Shown piece after piece: positions 3,990-58,001 of a stretch of 64,000 bases of DNA. The DNA comes from an uncultured Bacteroidaceae bacterium. Lineage in GTDB: Bacteria > Bacteroidota > Bacteroidia > Bacteroidales > Bacteroidaceae. A program made the position numbers and the translations under genes. The notes below the pieces were generated by a model. That model searched no databases, was not told where the DNA came from, and was given only the letters and a program-made list of their open reading frames with translations. The stretch covers positions 62,001 through 126,000 of the forward strand of contig CAJODY010000001.1 of NCBI GenBank assembly GCA_905233285.1, given 5' to 3'. Within the stretch, counting starts at the first letter, position 1; every line of letters begins with the position of its first letter.

Positions 3990-4062
3990 GATCCGCTAGC
4001 TCAGTCGGTAGAGCACAACACTTTTAATGTTGGGGTCTTGGGTTCGAGCCCCAAGCGGGTCA
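3990..4062 (+). tRNA. tRNA-Lys (TTT anticodon); likely prophage attachment site
   Basis: A complete cloverleaf is visible: acceptor GATCCGC/GCGGGTC (one G-T pair), D-arm GCTC..GAGC, anticodon stem CAACA/TGTTG with loop CTTTTAA giving anticodon TTT, T-arm TTGGG/CCCAA with TTCGAGC loop, and discriminator A at 4062; CCA is not encoded. An integrase gene starts 220 bp downstream pointing away from the tRNA. In established phage biology this layout means integration at the tRNA 3' end. The expected duplicate of the tRNA 3' end (attR) is not in the window. Confidence 0.95.
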
Positions 4063-4082
4063 CACAAAGAAGTGAAGAAATG

Positions 4083-4168: not shown

Positions 4169-4256
4169 GTGTACCACGCAAATACGCAAGGAAACGCAAT
4201 ACTGCGCACTACTACGCAAAGTTTGTGAACCAGAGTCGTACCAAACGTGTGTACCA
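4169..4256 (+). repeat. Direct repeats upstream of int, possible integrase arm-type sites
   Basis: ACGCAA followed by A/G/A/T-type ends occurs four times in the same orientation (4176, 4184, 4194, 4214). GTGTACCA occurs twice (4169 and 4249). Clusters of short direct repeats between attL and int are typical of arm-type integrase or excisionase sites. Assignment here is by position only. Confidence 0.4.
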
Positions 4257-4282
4257 TTATCGTGAAACTTAATTTATTGGAT

Positions 4283-5419
4283 ATGAAAATAGCAAAAACG
4301 AGAGTTGTCTTTGACAGACACAACACAGCGACCAAGAAGGTTGCAGCAGCAATTTACATCGAAGTATCGTATGACCGTGTTCGTAACTTCTACAACACTG
4401 GCATCAAGGTTTGTTCCAACCAGTTCAAGGATGGGAATGTCGTAAACTGCGGTCAGATGGCAGAGTACCAGGAACGCATCAACGACATTCGCAACACCAT
4501 TGAGAACTATATCAATGACAGGATGAAAGCAAAGGAAACATTCAGTCTCGACAATCTAAAGAAGTTCATGGAGAATCAGGTGTTTGGCTCAACAGATTCA
4601 TTTCTGAGATTCATGTATCAGAGAATCTTTGACCGTCCTATTGCCGAATCTACGCGCAAAGCCCATATCTCACTTTACCACACACTGAAGAACTGGGGGC
4701 ATATCAGACAATTCTCAGACGTGACAGAAGCCAATATCAAACTCTGGGATGAACTGTCTCATAAGAATGCGACAAAAGCAAAGTCTGTCTGGAACTACCA
4801 CAAAATACTCAAAATATATCTCAGAGAGGCAAAGCGTTTCGGGTACATCAGGGAGAATCCTTATGACAATATGAAGTTCAAGCGCAACGAATCGCCCGGA
4901 CACCGATTCATAACAGCGGAAGAACTTGACAAGATCAAGGCTCTCAAACTGACTGACAAAGCACTGAAAGAAGCACGTATATGCTTTCTCTTCCAGTGCT
5001 ATACCAGTCTATCCTATGCCGACATGAGACAGTTCGATTACGATTTTGTCAAAGAGGTCAACGGCAAACTCAGACTGAGAAGTTGCAGGGTTAAGACGAA
5101 TGAAATGTATAATATAACGCTTCTGAAGGCGGCTGTTGAGATTCTGGAACAATGCGACTACACTTTGCCGATACAGGATTTGCATTTCTATAATCGTAAC
5201 CTCCAGACCATCCAACTCAGGGCTGGCATAAAGACGCATCTGACATCACACGTCGCTCGACACACGTTCGCAACGTCGATTGCTCTCAGGAACAAAATGC
5301 CTATTGAGGTGCTGCAAAAGGTCATGGGGCATGAAAGCATCAGAACAACACAAATTTATGCAAAGGTGCTTCAGGAATCGGTTGATGAAGAATTTGACAG
5401 GCTCGACAATATCATATAA
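4283..5419 (+). CDS. int: Tyrosine recombinase (phage integrase)
   Basis: The start at 4283 (MKIAKTRVVFDRHNTATKK) gives 378 aa; the ATG 36 nt upstream is less likely. Residues ~1-95 form the arm-binding region of Bacteroidota integrases, ~100-195 the SAM-like core-binding domain, and ~210-378 the catalytic domain. Catalytic residues visible are H323-x-x-R326, H350 and nucleophile Y359. At the usual first-arginine position the sequence reads TSLSYAD, with Ser instead of Arg, as is known for IntDOT-type Bacteroidota recombinases. It should integrate and excise the prophage at tRNA-Lys. Confidence 0.92.
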   Translation: MKIAKTRVVFDRHNTATKKVAAAIYIEVSYDRVRNFYNTGIKVCSNQFKDGNVVNCGQMAEYQERINDIRNTIENYINDRMKAKETFSLDNLKKFMENQVFGSTDSFLRFMYQRIFDRPIAESTRKAHISLYHTLKNWGHIRQFSDVTEANIKLWDELSHKNATKAKSVWNYHKILKIYLREAKRFGYIRENPYDNMKFKRNESPGHRFITAEELDKIKALKLTDKALKEARICFLFQCYTSLSYADMRQFDYDFVKEVNGKLRLRSCRVKTNEMYNITLLKAAVEILEQCDYTLPIQDLHFYNRNLQTIQLRAGIKTHLTSHVARHTFATSIALRNKMPIEVLQKVMGHESIRTTQIYAKVLQESVDEEFDRLDNII

Positions 5420-13110: not shown

Positions 13111-14007
13111 ATGGGTGGCGGTAGTTATTCTTACATGTCGGCTCACGCCCGTAGTACCGAAAGAGTGGCTGCTTATTCCGTTTTGACGGAATCTGCGGCC
13201 ATGGAACGGGCGTTCACACAGAAGCACATTGATTCAGAAATGATTATCAATGGTAAAGTCCGTGAAAGCCGTGATTCTGAGGAACACCCCAATTCGTTCC
13301 CCATCATCATTGCGCTTGACACTACTGGCAGTATGGGGCATATACCTATGGACTTAATCAAAGGCTCATTCCCTGAGATTATGAAGTCCATCATTGACGC
13401 TGGTGTTCCCGATCCGCAAGTATGTTTCATCGGTGTCGGCGACTGCTACTTTGACAATGCACCTATCCAGTGCGGGCAGTTTGAGAGCAGCGACGAACTC
13501 ATGGAGAAGTGGTTTCAGAAGGTCTATCTCGAAGGTGGTGGCGGTAATAACCCCGGTGAGAGTTACAACCTCGCATGGTATTTCGCAAGCCGACACACCG
13601 TTACTGACTCATGGGAGAAACGCCACAAGAAAGGTGTGCTGATTACTATTGGTGACGAGCCTTGTCTGGCAGAGATACCTCAGAGCAACATCGTCGGTTT
13701 GTTCGGTGATGGTACTCAGTCTGGCATACTGTCTTCTACCCTCATTGAAGAGGCAAGTGAGCAGTGGGAACTCTATCACATTCACATGGGCGACCTGCCT
13801 ATCTACAGTTCCACTATCAATAAGTGGCGCGGGCTGATTGGCAATGACCGCTTGGTTGTTCTTCCTCGAAAGAACTACAACCTTGTTCCTGTCGTTTCGT
13901 CCATTATCTGCAATGTCTATAACGAAAGTTCAAACACCGTTAGCCAGTCTAACGGCAATGCGAACAACGTTGGTGAAGTAAAACCAGAACAAAAGATAAC
14001 TCTGTGA
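13111..14007 (+). CDS. von Willebrand factor A domain protein
   Basis: 298 aa. The vWA fold is shown by the MIDAS motif D70-T-T-G-S74 in IIIALDTTGSMGHIPMDL, then a conserved hydrophobic strand FIGVGDCYFDN and LITIGDEPC later. vWA domains bind a metal ion and mediate protein-protein contacts. Lacking a signal peptide, it is probably cytoplasmic. The neighbours (the 137-aa protein, the DUF2135 protein) suggest a multi-protein assembly. Its TGA overlaps the ATG of the PurA-like gene (TGATG). Confidence 0.85.
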   Translation: MGGGSYSYMSAHARSTERVAAYSVLTESAAMERAFTQKHIDSEMIINGKVRESRDSEEHPNSFPIIIALDTTGSMGHIPMDLIKGSFPEIMKSIIDAGVPDPQVCFIGVGDCYFDNAPIQCGQFESSDELMEKWFQKVYLEGGGGNNPGESYNLAWYFASRHTVTDSWEKRHKKGVLITIGDEPCLAEIPQSNIVGLFGDGTQSGILSSTLIEEASEQWELYHIHMGDLPIYSSTINKWRGLIGNDRLVVLPRKNYNLVPVVSSIICNVYNESSNTVSQSNGNANNVGEVKPEQKITL

Positions 14008-15143
14008 TGAAGACGCAAGTAGTTCTTGGTACATTCTTCGGCGACGAAGGCAAAGGCTCTACGGTTCAATGGCTCTGCAAAGAGTCCATTGGACGTGGAG
14101 AAAAGCCTTTGGTTATCCGATACTCTGGCGGTTCACAAGCAGGACACCGTATCATCTGCAATGGCATCGAACATGTATGCAGTTCCTTTGGTGGCGGTAC
14201 TTTGCTTGGTGTTCCGACATTTCTCAATGAGAATGTGATGATCGACCCGATTTCAACTAAGATCGAGTTTGAGCAGTTGCAGAAGCAAGGTATCACACCG
14301 AAACTTTACTTACACCCCAATTTGAGTATCATTACTCACTATGACGTTGCAGCAAACCAGGCAGATAAGAAAGTCCTTTCTCATGGCTCATGTGGTGAAG
14401 GTATCTATCATACGTTCCTGCGCGGGAAAAAAGGTAGAAAACTTACCTATATTGTAGCCAATACAGACCCTGTAGAATCTTTAAACATGGTACGCTCTTA
14501 TTACGAGACTGACATGAATGAAGATTTGGATAAGAAGTTTATCGAAGCCGTTGCATGGCTAAATAAGTTTGCAGTAATCACATATCTGCCTCCAGTTGGC
14601 TATGACTGCTACATCTTTGAGGGTTCTCAAGGTCTTCTGCTTGACATGGATTGTGGATTTATGCCACATTGCACACCGTCACGGGTTGGTTTGAACGGTA
14701 TGACAGGAACTTACCTGAAGGATGCAGAGGTATTCATGGTAATGCGGGCGTATCTTACACGGCACGGAAATGGCTATAATCCATCAAGAGCCGATATGGT
14801 ACGAGAGTATTTCGATGTCGAAGAGCCGACAAATCGTGATGACGGATTCCAAGGAGTTTTCAAATATGGACTGTTTGAGGAAAATATGCTGAGACGTGTC
14901 TTTGACAGACACCACATCGACAACTGGAAAAATCAGTACGGACTTACCATCAATGGTGTTGTGACGCATCTTGATTGCCAGATTGAGGATTGTATTCCAT
15001 TCTACGATAAGAATCAGGAGTACGTAAGATACAGCGAAGATTCTTTCCTCAGAAAGTTATCGACATATTTTGATAACATCTACGGCTCTTATAGCCCAGA
15101 ACTTAGTGATGAACAATTCAAACAATTTACACCAGATTTTTAG
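14007..15143 (+). CDS. Adenylosuccinate synthetase-like enzyme (PurA/PurZ superfamily)
   Basis: 378 aa from the ATG at 14007. Superfamily motifs: N-terminal GTFFGDEGKGS (P-loop-like; D13 aligns by eye with the PurA catalytic Asp), RYSGGSQAGH (H47 at the PurA catalytic-His position), FEGSQGLLLDMDCGFMPH, THLD near the C-terminus, and a GFQGVFKYG segment where PurA has its Arg-rich aspartate loop. It is shorter than cellular PurA (~430 aa), like viral homologues. PurA makes adenylosuccinate from IMP and aspartate; phage PurZ makes the 2-aminoadenine precursor from dGMP. The substrate here is undetermined, and the retained Asp13 favours PurA-like chemistry. Neither companion Z-genome genes nor a polymerase are in the window. 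Confidence 0.8.
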   Translation: MKTQVVLGTFFGDEGKGSTVQWLCKESIGRGEKPLVIRYSGGSQAGHRIICNGIEHVCSSFGGGTLLGVPTFLNENVMIDPISTKIEFEQLQKQGITPKLYLHPNLSIITHYDVAANQADKKVLSHGSCGEGIYHTFLRGKKGRKLTYIVANTDPVESLNMVRSYYETDMNEDLDKKFIEAVAWLNKFAVITYLPPVGYDCYIFEGSQGLLLDMDCGFMPHCTPSRVGLNGMTGTYLKDAEVFMVMRAYLTRHGNGYNPSRADMVREYFDVEEPTNRDDGFQGVFKYGLFEENMLRRVFDRHHIDNWKNQYGLTINGVVTHLDCQIEDCIPFYDKNQEYVRYSEDSFLRKLSTYFDNIYGSYSPELSDEQFKQFTPDF

Positions 15144-15147
15144 AATT

Positions 15148-15393
15148 ATGAACAAAGAAGAAATTAAAAACAAAGTGAAAGACATCATCGTTGAGAAGAA
15201 TGACGTTGATGCCTCAGAAGTGACAGACACAGCAAACTTCGAGACTGATCTTGGTATGGATAGCCTCGACCGTGTAGAACTCTTGATGGAAGTCGAAAAG
15301 GAATTTTCAATAAAAATCCCTGACGATGAAGCCGAGAAAGTTTACACTCTTGCTGACTGTGTTGAACTCGTAGAGAAGCACAAGAATGGCTAA
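15148..15393 (+). CDS. Acyl carrier protein
   Basis: The start at 15148 (MNKEEIKNKVKDIIVEKND) gives 81 aa, the canonical ACP length. The phosphopantetheine attachment motif is D38-S39-L40 within DLGMDSLDRVELLMEVE. ACP carries acyl chains on a 4'-phosphopantetheine arm in fatty-acid or related synthesis. A phage copy could redirect host acyl transfer, for example to modify a protein or lipid; this is inference. It begins 4 nt after the PurA-like gene and overlaps the next gene by 8 nt. Confidence 0.9.
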   Translation: MNKEEIKNKVKDIIVEKNDVDASEVTDTANFETDLGMDSLDRVELLMEVEKEFSIKIPDDEAEKVYTLADCVELVEKHKNG

Positions 15394-18855: not shown

Positions 18856-19458
18856 ATGAAAGAAATCAAAATCAAGGTGCCTGACAACCAGGCTGAACTT
18901 TTTGCAGAGAAACTTTCTGCATTGGTGAAAGAGTGTGGAGGTAGCACCTCTGAAGCAGAAAACAAGGTTGACATCTTTGATTCAAGCATCCCTATCTGGG
19001 ATAGAATCAAGACCGTTGAAGATGCCATTGCCTACACAGGAATGACATTGCCTGACAATATCGGTGAACTACCTCTTGACGTACAGGCAATGCTCAAACT
19101 GCGTATCATCTGTGCCGCCTACAACGAACTGAAGGCAGACCAACTCGACCAGTTTCCGAAGTTCACCACTGACGAGTACCGCTACTATCCTTGGTGCATT
19201 CTCTACACTCAGGAAGAGATTGACGCAATGAATGAGGAAGACCGTAGCCGCGTGTTGGGGCGTTCGTACAGCTTCGCGTACGCGTACGCGGGTGTCGCTT
19301 ATTCGCTCTCGAGTTTCGCCGCGTCGTACTCGCACTCGAACCTCGGCGGTCGGCTCTGCTTCAAGACAAGAGATTTAGCAATCGAGTGCGGAAAGCGTTT
19401 CCTGAAACTTTGGGGTCAGTTCTACGGATTCCTTGGTGAAGAGGTCAAAACATTTTAG
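18856..19458 (+). CDS. DGR target protein 1 (contains VR1)
   Basis: 200 aa from MKEIKIKVPDNQAELFAEK. Residues ~131-168 are the variable repeat VR1, whose randomised positions sit between a constant RVLGRS and a constant GGRLC. The following LCFKTRDLAIECGKRFL and YRYYPW before VR1 match a protein type I recall from Bacteroidota phages and mobile elements, with the variable part inside rather than at the C-terminus. It has no signal peptide. A C-type-lectin-like fold is likely for a DGR target. As the last gene of the accessory operon, it is not obviously a tail protein; binding to a host or competitor ligand is speculative. Confidence 0.8.
   Translation: MKEIKIKVPDNQAELFAEKLSALVKECGGSTSEAENKVDIFDSSIPIWDRIKTVEDAIAYTGMTLPDNIGELPLDVQAMLKLRIICAAYNELKADQLDQFPKFTTDEYRYYPWCILYTQEEIDAMNEEDRSRVLGRSYSFAYAYAGVAYSLSSFAASYSHSNLGGRLCFKTRDLAIECGKRFLKLWGQFYGFLGEEVKTF
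19247..19360 (+). repeat. DGR variable repeat VR1
   Basis: 114 nt matching the TR (24399-24286, minus strand) over its full length. All 18 differences are at TR adenines (28 in the TR). The last 16 nt, GGCGGTCGGCTCTGCT, are invariant and end at the TR/VR homology border, as expected for the IMH. Lies 5 kb from the TR on the opposite strand. Confidence 0.93.
19390..19402 (+). other. Short hairpin downstream of VR1
   Basis: GGAAA-GCG-TTTCC, 30 nt after the end of VR1. DGR VRs commonly need a hairpin or cruciform just beyond the IMH. The match is by position and is weak. Confidence 0.3.
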
Positions 19459-21708: not shown

Positions 21709-22182
21709 TTAGAGGGTTAGACATAAAGCAAAGATGTTCAGCGTACTCAGAATTTCAACCCAGAACACATTCCTGCTAACATCTTTCGCCAACAGAGTAT
21801 AGCCGATATACAAGAACCATAACAGCAGCAGCAGAGGTTGGTTAAGGGCTACCAACAACTGTGACGCTATCCCTGCATCTACGGCTCCGACATAGTGAAC
21901 GGTGTTCTTCGCTTTCGGAACCAAGGGCGCGGCTCCGACAAAGCAGACACCACCAATCATCAGGAAAGCAATGAACTGAGTTTGCTCAGAAACTTTTTCC
22001 ATCAAAACGGGCATCAGCATGAATCCTACCATCCACATCACAATAGTAAACACCCACTGACCCTTGCGAGGCAGTAGGAAAACGGTCTGAGAGATACTTT
22101 CAGGTATCTTTCGACCTGTGTAAACCATTGCCCCCACGTAGAGAGCAATGGTTGTAATCGAGGCAATCACCAGTCCGATCAT
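21709..22182 (-). CDS. Multi-spanning membrane protein of the lysis module
   Basis: 157 aa with about four or five hydrophobic helices (starting MIGLVIASITTIALYVGAMV, then FTIVMWMVGFMLMPV, a Gly/Ala-rich segment, and LLLLLWFLYIGYTLL). It overlaps the upstream start by 4 nt. A holin or antiholin is possible; no signature is decisive. Confidence 0.65.
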   Translation of the reverse strand: MIGLVIASITTIALYVGAMVYTGRKIPESISQTVFLLPRKGQWVFTIVMWMVGFMLMPVLMEKVSEQTQFIAFLMIGGVCFVGAAPLVPKAKNTVHYVGAVDAGIASQLLVALNQPLLLLLWFLYIGYTLLAKDVSRNVFWVEILSTLNIFALCLTL

Positions 22183-22661
22183 AGTCCGAACGTTGTCATG
22201 TCAATACCGTCTTTCTCAGCCCAACCCTCATTGAGAGTTGTGTTCACAAAGGCGATTGCCTTGGTGTAGAAATCCGTAAACTCTGACAGTTCCGTGAATG
22301 TGTGATAGACGGGATTGCCGTTTCCATCCTCACCTAATTTGAACTTCACAGGAAGAGTTGCGCCTCCAGTCTGAACCGCAAGGTCATACGCTGCCTTGAA
22401 GTTAAACTCATTCTCAGTCGAAAGCCAGACTTGCTTTTCCTGCCAGACAAAGCCTGTCAGAATCTTTGCGTCGGTGTTGGCATTGATCTGAGCAATGATA
22501 ACGTCTCGAATCTCCTGTTCCGTAGGCTTGTGGTCAAAGGTGTGACGATAGTCGTAACCCTGACCATCATCTTCACCATAACCGTAAATCAGCACTGCAC
22601 GCTCCGTACCGAATACCAGTAGTTGGTCGTGCCTCTCCGTTGCTCCAAAAATTTTCTCCAT
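22179..22661 (-). CDS. Hypothetical tail-associated protein (DUF4376-like)
   Basis: 160 aa. Contains EQEIRDVIIAQINANTDAKILTGFVWQEKQVWLSTENEFNFKAAY, the sort of pattern found in phage DUF4376 / fibre-assembly proteins. It lies directly downstream of the RT. Its sequence does not suggest the small basic helical bundle of Avd. Confidence 0.6.
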   Translation of the reverse strand: MEKIFGATERHDQLLVFGTERAVLIYGYGEDDGQGYDYRHTFDHKPTEQEIRDVIIAQINANTDAKILTGFVWQEKQVWLSTENEFNFKAAYDLAVQTGGATLPVKFKLGEDGNGNPVYHTFTELSEFTDFYTKAIAFVNTTLNEGWAEKDGIDMTTFGL

Positions 22662-22674
22662 AACTCTATGATTT

Positions 22675-24030
22675 TTAAGTGAACATATATCTTACCTTAC
22701 CCTGACCGAAATACTGAGGGGTTATCTTGCAGTCGAATGGAATGTTGTTTCTGTTACGAAACTCATCCAGCCAGAACTTCTGTTCGGAATCGTTCGTAAG
22801 ATACTTTCCAATAGTTCCATCGTCTCTCTGAAACTGAACCACATAACGTGGGCCGTTCTTTGTAGGTACGTCTGGCTCATAGTCCAGAACAACAATGTGC
22901 ATATTCACAAGCGTCCTGAGAGAAACCTCCTGTCCTGTAAGCATACGCTTACCGTCTTTGCCTGTGTAATCTACACCATCTTTCTTCATCTGTTTAACTT
23001 TGTCAGCAAATGATTCCATATTCTTTCCTGTTAATGTTTTGTATAAATGTTTGCAATCTCCCCATTTAGCCATACCTTTCAGACTTCCAATTATCTCCTG
23101 TCTGCGTTTGCGACTCTTAATCTTAGAAAGTTTTCGGGCGGCTTTCTGTTTGGTACGTTTCCTTAACCTTGCCTTGAAACCGTCGTAAACAAATCCGAGA
23201 AAGTCTATACCGTCACTAATCGGTCTCACACATTCATTCGGCTTCACTTCAAGTTTCAACATACCTGCCTGTTCGTGCATCATGTCACGGAACAGCCAGA
23301 GTTTACGCTTGCTCGAACCAAGAATGACTATATCATCACAATAGCGATAGTAATACCTCACTCCCAACACATCTTTGAAGTAGTGGTCGATGCAACTGAG
23401 GAAGATATTGCCGTAACATTGTGACGAGCGGAGTCCAATGGAAAGTCCTTTCTCCATCATCGTCACAAAGTTGTGAAGTATCGGCAAAAGTATCGGGTCT
23501 TTGATCTTGTCTTTGACACATTCCCACATCAGGTCTTGGTCAACACTCTCAAAGAACTTCCTGATATCGCATTTGTAGAAATAACGTGTTCCTTCAGGGT
23601 CATTTTCAATATCATGCCGCATCTTCGCAAACAAACGGTGCATACCGCGACCGGGGATGCTTGCGGCAGAAGTCTTGATAACACTTGGATATAACACGTC
23701 TTCCACAATGCGCATAATGGCATTACACCCTATCCTGTGTTCTACGCACGGACTTTGAACCCTACGGATTTTAGGCCCCTCCGTAACCCACATTTCCCGA
23801 TAGTGCGTGACACGAAAACTACCGTCGCTGATACTTTTCGTCAGATTGGCAATAATCTCTTCGCGCTGGTTGCGATAGTTTGTGCGTCTGCCTGGTAGTT
23901 CCACAGCAACACCTTTGCGATAGACTATTCTTGGATTGTCTGGCAATTGGTCAACGACTTCATCAAACGCGCGATCCATGTTCTCGCGTTCGATTATTTT
24001 CTGTATCAGGAAGCCATATCTCTTAGACAT
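22675..24030 (-). CDS. DGR reverse transcriptase
   Basis: 451 aa from MSKRYGFLIQKIIEREN (24030); an open upstream extension to 24150 lies in the TR-RT spacer. The catalytic motif YCDD is at residues 230-233. Just before it is IGLRSSQCYGN, the SQ motif distinctive of DGR RTs, and the thumb follows. It copies the TR RNA with adenine-specific misincorporation, and the mutagenised cDNA replaces VR sequences. It is on the same strand as the TR and the tail-fibre gene, in the usual DGR order. Confidence 0.95.
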   Translation of the reverse strand: MSKRYGFLIQKIIERENMDRAFDEVVDQLPDNPRIVYRKGVAVELPGRRTNYRNQREEIIANLTKSISDGSFRVTHYREMWVTEGPKIRRVQSPCVEHRIGCNAIMRIVEDVLYPSVIKTSAASIPGRGMHRLFAKMRHDIENDPEGTRYFYKCDIRKFFESVDQDLMWECVKDKIKDPILLPILHNFVTMMEKGLSIGLRSSQCYGNIFLSCIDHYFKDVLGVRYYYRYCDDIVILGSSKRKLWLFRDMMHEQAGMLKLEVKPNECVRPISDGIDFLGFVYDGFKARLRKRTKQKAARKLSKIKSRKRRQEIIGSLKGMAKWGDCKHLYKTLTGKNMESFADKVKQMKKDGVDYTGKDGKRMLTGQEVSLRTLVNMHIVVLDYEPDVPTKNGPRYVVQFQRDDGTIGKYLTNDSEQKFWLDEFRNRNNIPFDCKITPQYFGQGKVRYMFT

Positions 24031-24285
24031 AATCTTAAATTGTTTACTTCTTCGTTTCATGTGGTCATAGGGCTTTCGACATCTTGCGATACTACTTGAC
24101 CATAATCGACCACACCCTGTGATTTTCCGACTTTCCAAACTCTTTCTCAAGAAGTTTGCTGTTGCCGAGGCTCGAATCCCTCGCTGACAGCCGTCACCTA
24201 TCCCGTAGGTGTTCGCCGTAGCAACGATTAGTTCTGAATGTCAGCCCATCCCGTGAGCAACTTTCCAGAAGCAGAGTTCCGATTT
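24031..24285 (-). ncRNA. DGR TR-RT spacer, probable part of the TR RNA
   Basis: 255 nt between TR and RT with no accepted gene. On the minus strand it holds short helices (CCTA-CGGGA-TAGG; GAGG-GATTCGA-GCCTC). In characterised DGRs the RNA needed for cDNA priming extends from the TR into this spacer. That it does so here is inferred. Confidence 0.55.
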
Positions 24286-24399
24286 AGCAGAGCCGACCGC
24301 CGTTGTTCGTGTTCGAGTTCGACGCGGCGTTATTCGTGTTCGAATAAGCGACTCCCGCGTTCGCGTTCGCGTTGTTGTTCGAACGCCCCAACACGCGGC
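24286..24399 (-). repeat. DGR template repeat (TR)
   Basis: 114 nt. Read on the minus strand in the VR frame it would encode R-V-L-G-R-S then a series dominated by AAC/AAT (Asn) codons, the typical DGR design. It has 28 adenines in the sense strand. It is identical to both VRs in its terminal 16 nt. Upstream is the tail-fibre gene, downstream the RT. Confidence 0.95.
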
Positions 24400-24467
24400 T
24401 CGATGGGATTCTCTACCTTTTACGCATTACGTCTGGCGTTGACGTTCTGCGTTATACGTTAAGACGG

Positions 24468-24497
24468 GGAGGAGAGACGGCTTTTCAAGCCGCCTCC
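24468..24497 (-). other. Hairpin between VR2 and TR
   Basis: Outer arms GGAGG/CCTCC and inner GGCTT/AAGCC (24479-24491) lie just past the stop of the tail-fibre gene, about 50 nt after VR2. It may be the gene's terminator or the DGR hairpin needed for VR retrohoming. Confidence 0.45.
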
Positions 24498-24509
24498 GCT
24501 CCACGCTTT

Positions 24510-27500
24510 TCAAAGTACGTCTTCTTCGTTCTCGATTTTTCCGAAGAAGCAGAGCCGACCGCCGTTGCTCGTGTACGAGCCCGACGCGGCGTTACTCGTG
24601 CTCGAATAAGCGTCCCCCGCGCTCGCGTGCGCGTCGTAGCCCGAACGCCCCAACACGCGGCCTTTACCACTACTTGTTGACTGATAGCAGGCATAACAGG
24701 TGGCATATACAGCATCACCAGCGTATGCAGATGCAACAATGTCACAGAATCGACCGAAGCGGACACGCGCAACATTCGATGCCTGATTTGTCGTTGCTGC
24801 TTTGACACGACGTTCGTTACCGTCCTGCTGCTTGATGTTATAGGTGTAGTCAACAACCCATGTGCTCAGTTCCTTACGCTGTGCCTTCAGGAATGCAGCA
24901 AACGACGGTGCATTGAGACAGCCTTTATCCATCCATTCATACATGGTAGCCGTCCAAGCCTCAAGACCCCACATCTTGTTAAGTCCTGCCTGTAGGCTGT
25001 CACCCATACCAAGGCTGTTACGTTGACCAGTGGTATAAGATGCACCTGAACCGACACCGACGATGCTTTCAACGTCTCTCGTACCAAACCAAGCCATCAT
25101 CAGGTTTGCCATATCCTTTGAAGTCTCGTAAGGAACGGTAGTGTATTCACCATCATCGACATTAGTCTGTGCCGTTCTGATACGGGCAAGGTTATAGAAG
25201 TCCTGTGCCGTACCATTCAACGTATTGGATGGTAGTGAGCCAATGGGATTGCCGTCAACGTCATACGTCCAGTTATTGTTGTATTCAGACGTTCCGTTAC
25301 CTCTTGAATTGGCTTTACCACTCAGAGAGCGAAGTCCAGACGTGGCAATACCTCCTTCGGTAACACCTTCGGCAAAGCCCTGATAAATACCTATCAGTTC
25401 TGATTGGTGCTCAACCCAATACGGCTCTATTGCTTCAATCTCTTTTGAATCTGTCAGCAATACAGCGGCATATCCTGTGATAGTTCCCTGCTCGTTCAGA
25501 ATTGGCATAGCACCAAAAGCACTACCGTTTGTAAACAGAGCCTCATTCGTAGCGACCATGCTGAAATAGAGATAAACGGCATTTTCTGGAATATCACAGA
25601 AGATGTAGTCACCAATCTCGTTGTCGAAGTCGCCGGGGTTTCCTGCGTAATCGGTCATGGTGAAACTCTGTGCGCTGATACATTTGCCGTCGGCATCTGC
25701 AAAAACGAAACCTGCATAGGTATGTCTGAGACCGGGGAAGCGCACTTGTTTGTAGCCGCCACTCACTGCAACACGATAGGTGTTATAGAGTGAGGCAGAA
25801 CCCATCCAGTCCTCAATATCATCACCTTCGCCTATCGCTGTGTTCACGGAAAGATCGAGCCAGTCGCCGCTGATGTCAAGACACTGCCCTGCAAACTTTG
25901 TCATTTCAGAGATTTGCACAAGGCTCTGCTTCGTGTAACTTGCTGACGGAACAGTTGTCAGACCAGAGAGGAACAGGTGTTTCTTAGCCAGTCTATAGTT
26001 GTTCACACCTTTATAGAAATACTTTGGCACGTAGAGGAAAGCATCCTGACCAATACCTTCGTTATCGGTTATAGCGTTCACAGCACTTGTGCCGTCTTCG
26101 TAAAGGGTGTAGTTGTCCTTTGACAGCGGTGTAAGGTGCATACGTCTCTTTGTCGCACCATTCTCAGTAACATTCTTCACAAGACCAAGAACGGGAACAC
26201 ACTTGTCATGGATAACTTTGACGTGACCAGATTTCTGATAGCCGTTGGGATTGGTCACAGCATACTCCTGACCACTTACGCGATAGTCGTAACCTGTCTG
26301 GTTATCTTCGTTTGTGACATTGGCGGGGTCGGTCTCAACGTCATTGAATACGTATTCGGTGTATTGAGCCTCTTCCAAATCCAAGCCGCACTGAGCGAAG
26401 AAAGTCTTGAGAGTGTCGAAATCGTCAACAACGTCTATCAACTGGACTTTTCCGATAAGAGCGGGATAGGTCTGCTCCGTACCCGATGCGGTCAAGCCTC
26501 GGAAGCCAGTCATGAAAGGTCTCAACATTGAAGAGCGTACTCTTCCAGTCATACCCTCGATGCGGACGTGATCGATGTTCGGACACATCGTCATAAGAGT
26601 TTGCCATGACAGATTCGGACACTCGGCAAAGTTCAGAGCCGTAATGTTCGACGTGCCTTGCAATGTCAGTCCTGAGTGAGTCAGTTTCGGCAAGTATCTC
26701 AGCGTAAGAGTTTGCAAGGTCGATGGCATCACCAAAGTCTGCAAAGGAGCACCCTCTGGCAGATTGATACGTGTCAGACTTGTGCCACCTGCAAGCAATG
26801 TCGTGAGACGGGTATGCTTGCTGATGTCGAATACTCCTGCCGTACCTGTGTGTACTGCGGTCTGACCAGTAATGTCAACATACTCTAACTTTGCGGTGTT
26901 ACCGAACGTGAGAGGCGCATTGCTGACACCGTATGTCGTAACAGGCATCACAAGTTTAGACAGCATCGTACACAGCGAAAGTCCTACAGTACCGTTGAGT
27001 TGTGAACCCATATTCGACAGGTCAAGTTCTGAGATACAACTTGCACCACCCAGCATAAGTGGGTCGTTGGTTGCGAGTGTGTTCGTGAATGTCAGCGTCA
27101 AACTCTCTCCAGCATCGGCTCTTGACGGACCTTGTAGCCACTGACCGTTAAGTTTGTAGCCGAAATAGTACAAATCACCACTCTTCAGCGTGAGACTGGA
27201 AACGGTATCGCCAGAGTTTCTAACAACGGTAAAGGTGATAACGTCACCATTGTAGTTTCCGGCACCGTAACGTGCGTCAAGCAGACGGGCGCGGTCGGTC
27301 AAGAACTGTGTACGGTGAAGTTCACGGTTTCCTGTAAGAGTATAGACATAGTTTAGATCGTTGATAGTGTCGATATACTTCAACTTTCCAGACTTGTTAT
27401 ACTGTCTCTCACTCCAGTTGTCCTGCATGATGCTGTTGAACTCATTCAGCATAACTTCTGTTGTGAGTTGGTTTCGGAGATTTGCAGCGCACTCTCTCAG

Positions 27501-30500
27501 TTCTTCCTCAAAGTTTGCCAGTACCAAGCACCAGAGCCAACTATTGTGACCCTCGAAAGCATACTTGGCTCGCTCTGAGTCGTAGGTGTCTCTCGTCACA
27601 TTATACAGATAAGCCATGAATGCGTCGTTACGGATAGACATTGCGGTATCGCCGTCGTAGAACGTAGCCCACCAGATTACGCCATCCCAAGTTCTCCAGA
27701 TAATGTTCTTGGCACGTTGGTCAACGCTTGCCCAATAGTCGGTGAAGAGATAGTATGTCAGAAGGTGACTGACATTGAAGTATTGGCTGGCCTCAGTCTT
27801 GAACTTGTTTGAAGTCCACTTTGCCTTTGACACGTCTGACCAACCTTGCTGTGTGCCGTAGTCAGGATTCGTGCGCATTGCAGATGGAACACAGTCATAA
27901 ATCCAACCCATCCAACGCTTGATAGCAGCCTGTGCGTCACCCCAATCAGCGTAAGAGCCTGTACCGATGGTAGCCCACGTTGCATCTTCGGGATGGTTGA
28001 ACTCGAAGCCAGCATCAAACTCTGCTGCAAGTTGCTGACTAAGAGCGGTGCTGCCATTAGTTCCTGCGGCTTGGAACAGAGTCATAGGTGAAGAGTTTGT
28101 CAGTGCTTCGAGCGAAATAGGCTTTGTGTCGAAGACAGGACTTCCATTCTCGTACTTACGGAAGTCAACTTCGTCACCATTGCCGTCTTTCACACCTTCC
28201 ATACCGAAAATCTTTCCAGACTTTGACTTCTCGTTGTTCAATACGAATTGTCCTGCGTATGTCAACGTACCTGTCTCGCTCGTTCCTGCATAGATGTCAC
28301 AGGGCAGACCGTCGATAGCCTGTCTTACGCGGGCATCGTATTCCTGCGGCGGCGTGTCAAGGTCAAGTTGGTGCATGATATTATTGAATAGGTGTGCGCC
28401 ACCAGTATTCATTACCAGAGAAGAGTCAACAAAGTCGGTCTTCGCACAAAGTACGGCTTGCTCGATGCTGTTACCGCTACCTCTCATGGCATAGCCTTTG
28501 GCAGTGGCGGTAACATCTACGCCACCGATAATGAATACGCGGGCTACGTCGCCTTGCTGTGTCGTGAGGTAGATACGGATATTTTTGTACGGGTACTTCA
28601 CAGACGATGTACCTTGGATCCTGACGCGGACATTACGCACTTCAAAGCCCTCGCCAATAGGATTGCCGTTCTCGTCAAGAGGTGGCTCCCACCGTACCAA
28701 GTCTGCCTTAAAGTTCTGCTTCTTGTCTTTGCAACGGAACAACTCGCTAAGTCCTGTACCTGTTCCTGCGGCTGCTCCGTCGGCAATAGTATCTGTAGAG
28801 CGGATAATGGTCAAAACACCACGTCCTTTGCTGATAAGGGCATCGTGATTGATGGCAATATTGCCGTCGGTATCGGTCGTATTGTTGCTGTCACCAACAG
28901 CATTCTTTGTGTGAGCACTCTGAATCTGCAATGCCGTAGGACGGTCGATGATGTAGTTGGAAAGAACTTCATCGGCACTCAACGGTGTGCGGTAGTATCT
29001 CAGTGAGCGAACTTTCACGTCGGCCTTGTCTGAATCAATAGTGATACCAACAGGCGTGTTCTGACGCAAATGGTCGGTATAGGTGTTTGCTCTTGACAGA
29101 ACACCATTGATGAAGAGCATAGCAATTCCTATGTTGTTCGTCACGGGCTGAACAACGAATGACAGATGTACCCAGCGGTCAACAGCAATGTTCATGGCAA
29201 TACTGTGAGGCCGTCTTACAATCAGAGGCACTTTGTTGGATTCGTCAACGATGTTGCCTTCATAGTCGATGTAGTTGCCGTTTTCGTCAACCAAATCTTC
29301 AGCGGTGGTGATTTCTTCAACGCCACCGAAATACAATCCTGCTTCCTCAGTCGTAACCTTGATACCCATTGGATAGCCCTGACCACCGTTGTCACAAAGA
29401 CTGCTAATGACGGTTGCGCCACGTTCCATGACCTGACTGATCATCACTTCCATTTCGAGTGTCATGCCTCGGTTCTGGATGGAGTAGTCACCATCGGTTT
29501 CATCCTGTATGAATGGCTTGATGTCAATGACGGCTTTTGCTCCGTTCGTCAGAAGCAGAGCGTCAACACCGTCACTGCCACGATTCCAACCGTTCGTGCG
29601 CCAGTCAACACCAGAGAAAGATGTGATACCTCCCCAATCTGCGGGGTCGGCTTCACTATTGCTACGACCTAATGCAGTCAGTTTCTTTCTGTAACCAACT
29701 GTCTCGGACTCGGTAACACCTGCTGCAGCAGTGACCTCAACGGCAAATGTCCTGACAGAACTGCCATTGCTGATAGTCATGGTGTGTGTTCCTGCGGTGT
29801 CGAAACGCTGTGTCACAGACTGCATCGACCTGTCAGCACTCAATGTCTGAGTTACAACGCCGTCAACGGCAATCTCAATCGTACTTGTCAGTCCTGAGTT
29901 GTTCCAAGCCGCAAGGTCAAGGCTCAACTCTTCAAACTGAGCCACCGACAGAGGCAGTGCCGTTGCACCGTAACTGTAAGGCAAAGGCATGTCTGAGATT
30001 TGGCTGACATCGGTATTCAGTCTCAATCCAAGATAGTTCGTAGTACCACCTGCTTTGAGCAAGTCAACACTAATAGCGTTCGAGAGCAAGCCAGCACTCT
30101 CGGCTATCAACTGTACGTTGTGACGGCCTGCACTGAGGTTGGCAGCAGTGAGATAGACGTAGTTACGTCCTGTACCTGTGATGGTGGTCGTAGAATCCAG
30201 AACACCATCAACCCACACTCTCAGAGTTGTGCCAGTAGGAACGGTGTAGGTGTACGGAATAGAAATGGCTGCTCCGTCGGTATAACCATTCGTCAATGCC
30301 AACTGTGAAGCAGGGTCAAAGGTCGTAGCCAAATCCATCGTTATCACGGTAACAGACTTAGAGCCTCGGCTGGTCTTCGTCTCTTCGTCAATCATAGTAG
30401 TAGCAACTACGCTGATGCTCACAGTACCAGGCGACGTGATAATGTCGGGTCCAAGGGTCAGAGTACGGGTAGTGCCGACAGCAACCTGCGCATTGGTCTC

Positions 30501-31139
30501 GCTATACACAGTCACAGAACCTATCTTGACAGTGATAGCAACGGTCTGAGCGGGATAGTTCACGCTCTCGCTTGCACCCTCGAAAGTTCTGATACAGTCA
30601 TAGTTCCACGTCATAGCGATGCTGTCACCCAACTTCATTCGTGCCGGAGTCAGCAGTGTCGTAGTGATTTTCGGGGAAATGACCTCACCGATTTCCTGTG
30701 CCGCTGGTATTGATGCTTCAAAGACGGGATCACCTGCACCGTTGCTGAACACCAATGGAACCATGCCATTCTCTTCACGGGTAGGGTCGATAGCAGCACT
30801 TACGGGAAGGTTGCTGTTGATGCCGTTAATCTCTTGTGAGACTACGCCGTTCTGAATAGCATTGGCACTTGAGTTGTTCAAGGCGGTGTCAACGGTCGGG
30901 ATATTAAGATTCACCTTTCCGTTGGCATCCTTCTGAACCTCAGTGTTGTTGACAACGACACCATCAACCTTGTTACCGATTGCTGTTTCCATCGTCGCTA
31001 CTTTCTCCTTGATAACACGCTCGACCTCGCCTCGCGTCTTACCCCATTCCTTACCCGCGTTCTGTCCGCTTTGGTAAGTACCGCCCCAATCATCCTCAAA
31101 GTTTTGGATAGGGGTGTTGTCAGTAATCTTTTTTGCCAT
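24510..31139 (-). CDS. Giant tail fibre, DGR target 2 (contains VR2)
   Basis: 2209 aa. The N-terminus (MAKKITDNTPIQNFEDDWGG) attaches to the tail. Residues ~160-480 are beta-rich Ig-like segments; ~490-730 a LamG/concanavalin-like region. An unassigned domain with QGTSSVKYPYKNIRI lies at ~840 and LRR-like repeats at ~1370-1530. The C-terminal ~220 residues form a formylglycine-enzyme/C-type-lectin-like domain ending with VR2 (~2160-2197). It is the probable receptor-binding protein, whose ligand-contact residues are diversified by the DGR. Confidence 0.9.
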   Translation of the reverse strand: MAKKITDNTPIQNFEDDWGGTYQSGQNAGKEWGKTRGEVERVIKEKVATMETAIGNKVDGVVVNNTEVQKDANGKVNLNIPTVDTALNNSSANAIQNGVVSQEINGINSNLPVSAAIDPTREENGMVPLVFSNGAGDPVFEASIPAAQEIGEVISPKITTTLLTPARMKLGDSIAMTWNYDCIRTFEGASESVNYPAQTVAITVKIGSVTVYSETNAQVAVGTTRTLTLGPDIITSPGTVSISVVATTMIDEETKTSRGSKSVTVITMDLATTFDPASQLALTNGYTDGAAISIPYTYTVPTGTTLRVWVDGVLDSTTTITGTGRNYVYLTAANLSAGRHNVQLIAESAGLLSNAISVDLLKAGGTTNYLGLRLNTDVSQISDMPLPYSYGATALPLSVAQFEELSLDLAAWNNSGLTSTIEIAVDGVVTQTLSADRSMQSVTQRFDTAGTHTMTISNGSSVRTFAVEVTAAAGVTESETVGYRKKLTALGRSNSEADPADWGGITSFSGVDWRTNGWNRGSDGVDALLLTNGAKAVIDIKPFIQDETDGDYSIQNRGMTLEMEVMISQVMERGATVISSLCDNGGQGYPMGIKVTTEEAGLYFGGVEEITTAEDLVDENGNYIDYEGNIVDESNKVPLIVRRPHSIAMNIAVDRWVHLSFVVQPVTNNIGIAMLFINGVLSRANTYTDHLRQNTPVGITIDSDKADVKVRSLRYYRTPLSADEVLSNYIIDRPTALQIQSAHTKNAVGDSNNTTDTDGNIAINHDALISKGRGVLTIIRSTDTIADGAAAGTGTGLSELFRCKDKKQNFKADLVRWEPPLDENGNPIGEGFEVRNVRVRIQGTSSVKYPYKNIRIYLTTQQGDVARVFIIGGVDVTATAKGYAMRGSGNSIEQAVLCAKTDFVDSSLVMNTGGAHLFNNIMHQLDLDTPPQEYDARVRQAIDGLPCDIYAGTSETGTLTYAGQFVLNNEKSKSGKIFGMEGVKDGNGDEVDFRKYENGSPVFDTKPISLEALTNSSPMTLFQAAGTNGSTALSQQLAAEFDAGFEFNHPEDATWATIGTGSYADWGDAQAAIKRWMGWIYDCVPSAMRTNPDYGTQQGWSDVSKAKWTSNKFKTEASQYFNVSHLLTYYLFTDYWASVDQRAKNIIWRTWDGVIWWATFYDGDTAMSIRNDAFMAYLYNVTRDTYDSERAKYAFEGHNSWLWCLVLANFEEELRECAANLRNQLTTEVMLNEFNSIMQDNWSERQYNKSGKLKYIDTINDLNYVYTLTGNRELHRTQFLTDRARLLDARYGAGNYNGDVITFTVVRNSGDTVSSLTLKSGDLYYFGYKLNGQWLQGPSRADAGESLTLTFTNTLATNDPLMLGGASCISELDLSNMGSQLNGTVGLSLCTMLSKLVMPVTTYGVSNAPLTFGNTAKLEYVDITGQTAVHTGTAGVFDISKHTRLTTLLAGGTSLTRINLPEGAPLQTLVMPSTLQTLTLRYLPKLTHSGLTLQGTSNITALNFAECPNLSWQTLMTMCPNIDHVRIEGMTGRVRSSMLRPFMTGFRGLTASGTEQTYPALIGKVQLIDVVDDFDTLKTFFAQCGLDLEEAQYTEYVFNDVETDPANVTNEDNQTGYDYRVSGQEYAVTNPNGYQKSGHVKVIHDKCVPVLGLVKNVTENGATKRRMHLTPLSKDNYTLYEDGTSAVNAITDNEGIGQDAFLYVPKYFYKGVNNYRLAKKHLFLSGLTTVPSASYTKQSLVQISEMTKFAGQCLDISGDWLDLSVNTAIGEGDDIEDWMGSASLYNTYRVAVSGGYKQVRFPGLRHTYAGFVFADADGKCISAQSFTMTDYAGNPGDFDNEIGDYIFCDIPENAVYLYFSMVATNEALFTNGSAFGAMPILNEQGTITGYAAVLLTDSKEIEAIEPYWVEHQSELIGIYQGFAEGVTEGGIATSGLRSLSGKANSRGNGTSEYNNNWTYDVDGNPIGSLPSNTLNGTAQDFYNLARIRTAQTNVDDGEYTTVPYETSKDMANLMMAWFGTRDVESIVGVGSGASYTTGQRNSLGMGDSLQAGLNKMWGLEAWTATMYEWMDKGCLNAPSFAAFLKAQRKELSTWVVDYTYNIKQQDGNERRVKAATTNQASNVARVRFGRFCDIVASAYAGDAVYATCYACYQSTSSGKGRVLGRSGYDAHASAGDAYSSTSNAASGSYTSNGGRLCFFGKIENEEDVL
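24548..24661 (-). repeat. DGR variable repeat VR2
   Basis: 114 nt aligned without gaps to the TR; 14 differences. Thirteen are at TR adenines and one (24613) is a T-to-A change relative to TR sense. It ends with the same 16-nt invariant segment as VR1, then diverges. It encodes the penultimate part of the tail fibre. Confidence 0.95.
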
Positions 31140-31289: not shown

Positions 31290-33845
31290 CTACACTGCGG
31301 CCTCCCATCCCGCGTAGATTGCTAAGTTGTCAACAATGGAAATCTGATAGGTATATCCGGGCTGTGGCTCGATTTCGTCACCGTTAGCCCATCGTACACC
31401 AACAGGAAGAGTCAGGACTGTTGCGGAATCGGACGGACAGGTAAACTCTATCATGTATTCGTTGTCGTAGCCTGTCACAGCCGTTCCGAATACGATAGTG
31501 ATAGCAGGCATCGGATTCGTCCAGATATTCTTTACGTTGGGAAGGATCTCAACGGTTGCCGCCGTCTGCTGAACCTGTCTCGTACTGGTCTTGTCTGCAA
31601 TGGCTTGCCTTACCTCTGCCTCCATGTCTTCAACAGCACCGTCTAACTGCTCCTGGTATTCTTCGTGCTTTGCCTGAATAGCAGGTGCAATCTGAGCAAT
31701 GGCATCAGAAACTCTTTGCTCACGGCTGGTCTCAGCACGTTCACGATTGGTCTCTGCTGTCTCGCGTAGGTTTTCTGCGCTTGCTCTTGAAGATTCGTTT
31801 TGAACACGTCTCTGCTCTGCCTGAGCACGTAACTGTTCGGTCTCAGAGATTGCCGCGTCATGCTGTTGGCGCAAAGTCTCAGCACCATCACGTTGTAGTT
31901 CTGCCTCTGCTCTGTCTGATTCTGCACTGTCACGACTACGTTCCGCGCTTTGTCTGGCTAACTCCTGACTTTGGCGGGTAGTTTCCTGTTGCTGTCTCTG
32001 TGTTTCCTTGTTCCTACGGATAGTTTCGTAGTCACTGCGCTCTGTCTCGGACTGAACTCGAAGAGTTTCTGCGTCGTCTCTGTCCGACTCAGCACTTGCA
32101 CGGTTACGCTCTGCCTGTGCTCTCAAAGTCTCAGCATCGGCACGACCTCGCTCTGCGGTTGCTCTTCTACCCTCGGCAGTGGTACGACCTTGCTCCGAAC
32201 TTTGACGGGTCGCTTCTGCATCAGAGCGCGAAGTCTCGTTCTGTTGCCTCTGCTCTTCATTTCTTGCACGGATAGTTTCAGCACTGGCACGACCTTGCTC
32301 TGCCTCGCCACGTCCAGTTTCAGCCTGACCTCTCTGGGATTCAGCATTGGCACGATTCTGTTCTGCCTGTTGTCTCAGAGTTTCTGCTTCGGCAATCTCA
32401 GAACTTTGTGTCTGTCTCAGAGTTTCTGCTTCGGCACGTTCTGACTCTGCCTCGGCTCGGTCTGATTCAGCCTCAGAACGTAAGGTCTCGGCTTGGGAAC
32501 GGCTTTGCTCGGCTTCAGAACGGGATTGTTCAGCCTCAGAACGGCTTTGCTCGTTCTGACCGCGCTGTGTCTCACTCTGCTGTCTCTCCTGTTCCTTCTG
32601 TTGACGTAAGGTCTCAGCATTACCGCGATTGGTCTCTGCTTCTGAACGGACTTGCTCGGCTTGGTTTATAACAGAAATAGCATCGTTAGTGTCCGATGAA
32701 CGCTGCTGTTCATTGGACTCAAAAGTCTGCTGTCTCTGCTGCTCACTCTCTTCAAAAGTTTCTGTGCGTTGCTGTTCAGAAGAAGTGAAAGTCTGTGACC
32801 TTTGCTGTTCTGCCAAAATTCTGTTCCGCTCGTTCTCAACACGCAACGACTCTGCTTCCCCTCTGAGAGTTTCAGCATTTTCAACCGTTCTGATAACTTG
32901 TGCTACAGCACCAGTCCTGACCTCTTCGTGCTCTTTAAAAGTTTGCTGACGGGCTTGCTCGGACTCAGCAAAAGAACGATTCCTTTCCGATTCATTCTCA
33001 GAAGCGGTCTCAGATAACGCGGTCTGTGACTGCTGGAATGTTTCGTTACGGCTCTGCTCTGACTCTGCAAAAGTCTGCTGTTGCTGCTCCTGCTGTCTCT
33101 CGAAAGCAGATTGGTTATCGGACTGGCTCTGAGAGAAAGTTTGCTGCCTCTGCTGCTCGTTCTGAACTCTCTGCTGTTCGTTCTCGGAACGGACGGTCTC
33201 GGCTTCTGCCCTGAGAGTTTCCGCGTCTGCCCTGCCTTGCTCTGCCTCACTCCTGAGAGTTTCGGCTTCAGAACGGCTCTGTTCAGAAGCATCTATCTCA
33301 GAAAGACCATTGCGAAGTTCAGTGGCTTCCTGTAACAGAGCATCGGCTTTCTCAACTGCTGCTGCTATGATCTGCGTAGAACTCAGGACGGTGTTAAACT
33401 CGGACATCCATTGTTCCTCAGAACCTTCATAGCCGTATCTGACAGCAATCTCGTATGCACTCTCACCGTAGATGCCAACGACCATATCCGTAGAATCCAA
33501 TGGCAATTCTTCTTCTGCCATATCGTCGGGTATGTCACAACTATGCGCTACAAGTTTGAAGGCATAGCAGTAGTCGCAACAAGTCTGATGGGTCTGCCCC
33601 TCATTCTCGAAAAGAGTGAGTCGGTAGATGCCAGTCTTGAACTGTTCCGAAGCAAGGAATGTGAAGACTACGACATTTCCTTCAGTACCAAAGTTCTCGA
33701 TACGACGGTCATTGCCCCACTGGTCACTCAGATAAAGACTAAGGCTGCGACCATCCAAGGTCTGTTCCTCACCATTCGTCAGTATCGGCCACTTTATCTG
33801 AATCACGTTACCGATTCTGAAAGTTTTCATTTGTTCCTGTGCCAT
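31290..33845 (-). CDS. Tail-fibre protein with very long heptad-like coiled coil
   Basis: 851 aa. Residues ~1-110 are a beta-rich head; ~110-150 contain a GIYGESAYEIAVRYGYEGSE-type turn common in phage fibres. Residues ~190-720 are hundreds of repeats of a seven-residue pattern such as ETLRSEA / QSRSEAE / QQRQQTF, low in hydrophobics and rich in R, E, Q, S. The last ~90 residues are a globular domain shared with the next gene. It is probably an extended shaft or collar fibre. The stop is TAG with an open extension beyond. Confidence 0.8.
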   Translation of the reverse strand: MAQEQMKTFRIGNVIQIKWPILTNGEEQTLDGRSLSLYLSDQWGNDRRIENFGTEGNVVVFTFLASEQFKTGIYRLTLFENEGQTHQTCCDYCYAFKLVAHSCDIPDDMAEEELPLDSTDMVVGIYGESAYEIAVRYGYEGSEEQWMSEFNTVLSSTQIIAAAVEKADALLQEATELRNGLSEIDASEQSRSEAETLRSEAEQGRADAETLRAEAETVRSENEQQRVQNEQQRQQTFSQSQSDNQSAFERQQEQQQQTFAESEQSRNETFQQSQTALSETASENESERNRSFAESEQARQQTFKEHEEVRTGAVAQVIRTVENAETLRGEAESLRVENERNRILAEQQRSQTFTSSEQQRTETFEESEQQRQQTFESNEQQRSSDTNDAISVINQAEQVRSEAETNRGNAETLRQQKEQERQQSETQRGQNEQSRSEAEQSRSEAEQSRSQAETLRSEAESDRAEAESERAEAETLRQTQSSEIAEAETLRQQAEQNRANAESQRGQAETGRGEAEQGRASAETIRARNEEQRQQNETSRSDAEATRQSSEQGRTTAEGRRATAERGRADAETLRAQAERNRASAESDRDDAETLRVQSETERSDYETIRRNKETQRQQQETTRQSQELARQSAERSRDSAESDRAEAELQRDGAETLRQQHDAAISETEQLRAQAEQRRVQNESSRASAENLRETAETNRERAETSREQRVSDAIAQIAPAIQAKHEEYQEQLDGAVEDMEAEVRQAIADKTSTRQVQQTAATVEILPNVKNIWTNPMPAITIVFGTAVTGYDNEYMIEFTCPSDSATVLTLPVGVRWANGDEIEPQPGYTYQISIVDNLAIYAGWEAAV

Positions 33846-57880: not shown

Positions 57881-57917
57881 GACGAAAAATGTAAAAAATC
57901 AGATATTTATTTTGGAA

Positions 57918-57946
57918 ATCTTTGTTTTCCAGACAAAAACAAAGAT
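57918..57946. promoter_or_regulatory. Palindrome between the divergent head and packaging promoters
   Basis: Perfect 11-bp arms ATCTTTGTTTT (57918-57928) and AAAACAAAGAT (57936-57946) around a 7-nt centre. It lies between the leftward -7 at 57880-57873 and the rightward -7 at 57965. It looks like a binding site; a terminator is less likely because neither side reads into it. Confidence 0.5.
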
Positions 57947-57964
57947 ATTTAGGTGTTTTATCTC

Positions 57965-57972
57965 TATTTTTG
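57965..57972 (+). promoter_or_regulatory. Rightward -7 box of the packaging operon
   Basis: TATTTTTG matches TAnnTTTG, 29 nt upstream of the TerL start codon. No TTTG at the -33 position. Confidence 0.45.
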
Positions 57973-58001
57973 CGACAAATTGTAAAGATAAACGAAAGAT
58001 T

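Follow-up and report, generated by a model that had tools for sequence, protein, structure and literature searches.

A prophage retroelement in an uncultured Bacteroidaceae bacterium whose single template very probably serves a fibre-like protein and a small protein of a conserved family

Diversity-generating retroelements (DGRs) diversify ligand-binding residues of CLec-fold proteins by adenine mutagenesis, and the targets of phage DGRs are generally interpreted as surface-binding proteins. We analysed a stretch of 64,000 nucleotides (the window) from an uncultured Bacteroidaceae bacterium (contig CAJODY010000001.1, positions 62,001 to 126,000 of the forward strand; assembly GCA_905233285.1). 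A prophage within it very probably carries one DGR in which the RNA of one template repeat (TR) rewrites two genes, namely the end of a large fibre-like protein, which contains variable repeat (VR) 2, and a small protein, which contains VR1.

Two-target phage DGRs, some with a distant VR, have already been published. DGRs with several VRs are reported as common (271 of 948 in one survey; PMC6642488), in Faecalibacterium phages with two targets one is described as large and the other as small, and Dahlman and colleagues reported a second, distal VR in four species of prophage and suggested a link of distal VRs to counter-defence (Dahlman 2025, PMC12629997). LoVEphage, which may be one of these four species (they are unnamed in the accessible part of that report), resembles the present locus in having one TR, a VR in a tail gene near the reverse transcriptase (RT) gene and a second VR far away, in a target of the same protein family as our small protein. 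It differs in that the target close to its RT is a tail protein of 438-439 aa, its RT annotation spans several frames and the RNA family RT-3 was not found; its description, as far as accessible, speaks of no target but the tail gene next to the RT. In Bacuni phages of Bacteroides uniformis (PMC8143477) too, a single DGR is reported to have a distant target in addition to the one next to its RT, and isolates differ in their VRs. However, both of their targets are fimbrial-tip-like with the VR at the very end, and an Avd gene is reported. The tentaclin phages nd4 and nd12 (PMC10743442) share one TR between two different target proteins, but in one of these the VR is near the N-terminus and is followed by Ig domains. 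The Hankyphage p00 DGR (BK010646) has an RT that is 43% identical to ours over its whole length, a target protein of 2245 aa, an RT-3 RNA and a DUF4376-like gene after the RT, but only one VR was found. What the present locus adds is, on the one hand, that distal targets are linked into one conserved family that is mutated as heavily as the fibre and, on the other hand, the placement of the Rfam RT-3 RNA between TR and RT. According to the accessible part of the Roux 2021 survey, one VR was chosen per RT where several were found; surveys of this design can miss second targets.

The cassette and its repeats

The minus strand carries, in this order, a 2209-aa fibre-like gene (24510..31139) ending in VR2 (24548..24661), the TR (24286..24400), an RT-3 structured RNA (24061..24229), the RT gene (22675..24030) and, directly after it, a gene matching the Pfam family DUF4376 (22179..22661). 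VR2 starts 262 nt from the TR. On the plus strand, 4.9 kb from the TR, lies a 200-aa gene (18856..19458; protein P0003) with VR1 in its interior (19246..19360). A preliminary description had proposed a two-target DGR in a prophage, and indeed one TR matches both VRs, beside a phage integrase and phage genes. The extent given there (22675-24661) encloses the cassette on the minus strand but leaves VR1 outside.

Over the 115-nt core of the TR, VR1 has 18 mismatches, all of them at TR adenines (hypergeometric p 7e-14), exactly as first described for this repeat on the other strand. VR2 has 15 mismatches, 14 of which are at TR adenines (p 3e-9); the earlier count of 13 in 14 is recovered when the outermost base (24662) is left out. 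The sole non-adenine mismatch of VR2 is a T to A change. Among the 29 TR adenines, ten are changed in VR1 only, six in VR2 only, eight in both and five in neither, and 28 of the 29 are at codon positions 1 or 2. The TR had been called Asn-rich, and its reading frame does hold 12 Asn codons (AAC/AAT); an AAC codon with its first two bases varied can encode 15 residues and never a stop. Both VRs are in coding regions and share the frame of the TR. At the 3′ edge, a Phe codon in both VRs corresponds to TAA in the TR, and in the relatives compared the TRs likewise differed from the VRs at this edge; this is the kind of difference that could separate donor from recipient. Common to TR, VR1 and VR2 is a GC-rich 3′ end, and the exact 16-base VR end was found in 21 stretches of viral contigs.

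The RT (P0001, 451 aa) has an intact reading frame, matches RVT_1 (E 4e-12) and has as its best match among PDB sequences 8ub7 (E 2e-24), which we take to be the Bordetella DGR RT. The YCDD and SQ motifs noted earlier are present as RYCDD and IGLRSSQ, the latter agreeing with the GxxxSQ motif given as a mark of DGR-type RTs (PMC12386605). Translation of the RT most likely starts at an ATG (24030) and not, as first assumed, at a TTG (24150). The C-terminal extension of the RT (residues 356-451; 22675-22965) matches a PHROG family of its own, phrog_19665; a similar stretch occurs in 14/14 other RT loci compared, with weak similarity in L014 and L037 (L numbers are our locus labels). The assembly (2.5 Mb, 110 contigs, ~90% complete) contains one RT matching phrog_1423, and no TR or VR copies beyond the three described were found in it. 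A Pfam scan recognised no Avd-like domain among the neighbours, no search aimed at Avd having been made.

The RNA between TR and RT matches RT-3 (RF03068) with 80.6 bits against a gathering score of 40.5. Of 22 other DGR loci searched, 15 (L006-L015, L038-L040, L089, L091) likewise have RT-3 next to the TR, on the side facing the RT; RT-17 takes its place in L087 and L088, and the remaining five loci have neither. Because of this placement in the window and in the 15 loci, RT-3 is probably the spacer part of the DGR RNA, which would give this Rfam family a biological setting. No published statement to this effect was found in the literature searched, which did not cover the original description of the RNA family. 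Folded alone, the TR-RT spacer is weakly more stable than shuffled sequences (z -1.38). According to tblastn, 13 of 14 other RT loci have a DUF4376-like gene downstream of the RT; the Pfam model itself is matched in 3/10 contigs. The gene could encode a DGR accessory or a tail-assembly protein, and a role as substitute for Avd is a guess; no literature linking DUF4376 to a retroelement was found.

The two targets in related phages

The preliminary description had proposed comparing alleles among related phages, expecting a constant TR and VR alleles that differ at TR adenines. Six LoVEphage-type genomes bear this out. Their TRs are identical over 112 bases, while five VR1 alleles contain 22 variable sites, 22/22 at TR adenines; the rest of the VR1 gene varies at 17/473 sites (VR excess p 8e-8). 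The VR2 sequences of these genomes differ too. In 6/6 records the annotation of the LoVEphage RT region (L037, L114-L118) spreads over two or three reading frames, although the VRs are clearly diversified. Six contig sets of further relatives were compared in the same way, and in three of them the VR is more variable than the rest of the gene (14/105 vs 3/756, 13/93 vs 10/426 and 25/105 vs 58/768 variable sites).

Across 24 TR/VR1/VR2 sets, mismatches fall at adenines in 311/326 cases for VR1 and 319/328 for VR2; 53% and 54% of TR adenines, respectively, are changed, and AAY codons yield no stops. L068 was left out of these sets, as was a LoVEphage VR1 allele that duplicates another, and the VR1 of L059 and one LoVEphage VR2 were dropped for too many non-adenine mismatches in ungapped matching. 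The two targets are thus equally mutated across relatives. A substitution preference specific to each VR, conceivable from the window, where VR1 shows mostly A to T and VR2 mostly A to G changes, was not borne out over the same sets (chi-square p 0.09), nor was a difference between VR1 and VR2 in aromatic residues (p 0.32).

The two targets also occur together. An RT search yielded ten viral contigs, all with TR and VR2; nine of them encode the small protein, which bears a VR in 9/9 cases, with mismatches mostly at adenines. Searching with the small-protein alignment gave 30 viral contigs, 23 of which were not already covered. An RT is present on eight of these 23 and the small gene carries a VR in 8/8, although in L059 the match is short (79 nt, 16/17 mismatches at A). 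In seven of the eight, the RT-side VR forms the end of another and longer frame, which extends beyond the retrieved piece. In the phage collection, eight records contain the small-protein family (six LoVEphage-type genomes, BT-TP2 and Versailles), again with a VR in 8/8. These co-occurrence counts are not independent, several records being near-copies. The distance between VR1 and TR reaches 75 kb on an 87-kb contig, is 55, 53 and 48 kb on three others and ~43 kb in Versailles; circular genomes could make these distances shorter. The pair is kept in contigs with an RT as little as 55% identical, at varied distances and on either strand.

Targets, roles and rival explanations

The distal targets form one conserved protein family, phrog_11581. 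P0003 matches it over residues 47-192 (E 1.2e-31) and also matches, via its VR, the end of the fibre family phrog_14959; in a profile comparison of the small protein with the fibre only 44 residues align, and these are the VR segment. Thirty aligned family members have ten invariant positions, including P112, W113, R166 and L167, and positions outside the VR are conserved. Members range from 157 to 290 aa (window and 32 loci). After the VR, about 30 conserved residues follow, which are modelled as a helix, and our structural claims are limited to this predicted helix. Foldseek of the small-protein model against viral models gave one match with E < 0.001, an uncharacterised siphovirus protein. 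P0003 had no match in Pfam, NCBIfam, PADLOC or a plasmid collection at the thresholds used, and no mention of phrog_11581 by name was found in the literature searched.

The other target, described earlier as a tail fibre, is indeed a 2209-aa protein with VR2 at its C-terminus; the name is suggested by its size, its position and the phage family phrog_14959 (E 1e-295; function unannotated). Its C-terminal 307 aa were modelled with a pLDDT of 31. It may bind host surface structures. A C-type lectin fold was not confirmed for either target: no lectin match was found in Pfam or PDB sequences, the models are of low confidence (pLDDT 31 for the C-terminal part of the fibre, <50 for the VR of the small protein), and profile searches for the fold of the targets returned nothing usable. 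The 851-aa gene upstream of the fibre contains many imperfect repeats (31717-32660).

If this locus works as studied DGRs do, its RT would reverse-transcribe the TR RNA, which would include the RT-3 spacer, making errors at adenines, and either VR would be replaced by the cDNA with the help of the shared GC-rich 3′ end. In BPP-1, a hairpin after the VR is reported to help homing (PMC3240598). A similar GC-rich hairpin, with a loop of 3 or 5 nt containing GAA, lies ~50 nt past VR2 (24473..24497, minus strand); a later hairpin search took 4-nt loops only and so overlooked it. After VR1, however, no comparable hairpin was found within the window, and a requirement for a hairpin at both targets is not supported. 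As VR1 is nevertheless equally mutated, it either uses another feature, or the hairpin is dispensable in this lineage.

Besides the missing hairpin, several observations weigh against a DGR that is active and generally paired with two such targets. One of the ten RT contigs lacks the small protein, Hankyphage and BS-TP4 have one VR only as far as found, and in L068 (L085 662-1313) one TR serves two neighbouring small-family genes, with no fibre VR seen. An RT was not seen on 15 of the 23 further small-protein contigs, including one of 139,730 bases, although contigs may be fragments. With full-length repeats, the nine RT contigs show 29 VR1 mismatches that are not at A; 25 of these are in the first 12 or last 7 repeat bases, and the four internal ones belong to L008 (one) and L014 (three). 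Three of the six contig sets show no excess variation in the VR (0/105 vs 1/480; 0/105 vs 0/495; and, in a divergent set, 35/105 vs 184/486, not significant). Moreover, neither phages nor 45 genomes of the genus, searched in collections that may lack very close records, yielded a near-identical copy of this prophage. Together with the one non-adenine change in VR2, this would suit an inactive cassette whose VR differences are old. We consider that improbable, given the intact RT frame with its motifs, the RT-3 RNA and the clear allele diversity in relatives; this copy of the DGR is probably active. It is similarly unlikely that the small gene is a passive hitch-hiker, into which a VR-like sequence was once copied and in which retrohoming continues without benefit. 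Such a state is favoured by the GC-rich 3′ end that VR1 has in common with TR and VR2, and by published work on BPP-1 reporting that sequence upstream of the VR is not needed. However, the pair persists with RTs down to 55% identity, on either strand and at varied distances. Mutation has reached VR1 as much as VR2, with AAY codons that give no stops, and the conservation of the small protein extends outside the VR.

For the small protein we tentatively favour a role inside the cell, because an N-terminal hydrophobic stretch is absent and because of the gene neighbours in two named phages. There it might bind a varying partner from the host, a defence factor or some other host factor being the likeliest. 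In a crude signal-peptide test, 0/33 family members had an N-terminal 12-residue hydrophobicity >= 1.8. LoVEphage has genes for a DNA methyltransferase and for restriction alleviation no more than 4 kb from its small gene. The Versailles copy is ~43 kb from the RT and is surrounded by genes of recombination and replication. Most neighbours of the small gene in the window have no annotation; one gene upstream of it encodes DUF5131. It is also quite possible that the small protein belongs to the virion or is a second adhesion factor, and that the phage uses both targets to attach to its host, a role proposed for those of Bacuni phages and for tentaclins. Published two-target phage DGRs are, as far as the accessible texts go, mainly interpreted as adhesion or structural systems, apart from Dahlman's counter-defence remark, and the Versailles copy is annotated as a tail protein. 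Seven of 33 members have a 19-residue stretch with hydrophobicity >= 1.6, and the model of the small protein (pLDDT 62.7, with an unreliable VR part below 50) leaves room for a virion part. Against attachment speak the position of the small gene apart from tail genes in LoVEphage and Versailles and the missing N-terminal hydrophobic stretch; the tail label can arise from the shared VR segment alone. Extending the intracellular reading, widespread Bacteroidota phages might use one DGR and the same template to vary both a fibre and an early intracellular protein that blocks variable host defence, a proposal we make with some reserve. A small-protein family that shares the fibre's template would then suggest that phages may use DGRs inside the cell. 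This question can be addressed directly in phages that already have names, such as LoVEphage, BT-TP2 and Versailles.

Prophage surroundings

The left end of the prophage is marked by a tyrosine integrase (4247..5419, plus strand) beside a tRNA-Lys (3990-4063); left of 3923, host-like domains are encoded (TonB receptor plug, tetrapyrrole methylase). A search for the attachment site on the right found none: the 20-mer at the 3′ end of the tRNA occurs once in the assembly. Genes are on the plus strand up to 19458, after which minus-strand genes follow, including one for a major-head-like protein. At least two cellular relatives of the small protein exist, and both are Prevotella among the matches listed, so the host is likely Prevotella-like. 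The plus-strand gene of the terminase large subunit (57912-60740) has an intein-like insertion, with Intein_splicing below its cut-off. An adenylosuccinate-synthetase relative at 14004-15143 belongs to phrog_1211, annotated as 2-aminooxy adenylosuccinate synthetase, and scores 22 bits with the NCBIfam PurZ model (cut-off 300); an acyl-carrier-like protein (15145-15393) adjoins it. If the phrog_1211 product did make a modified adenine, this could have a bearing on the adenine mutagenesis of the DGR.

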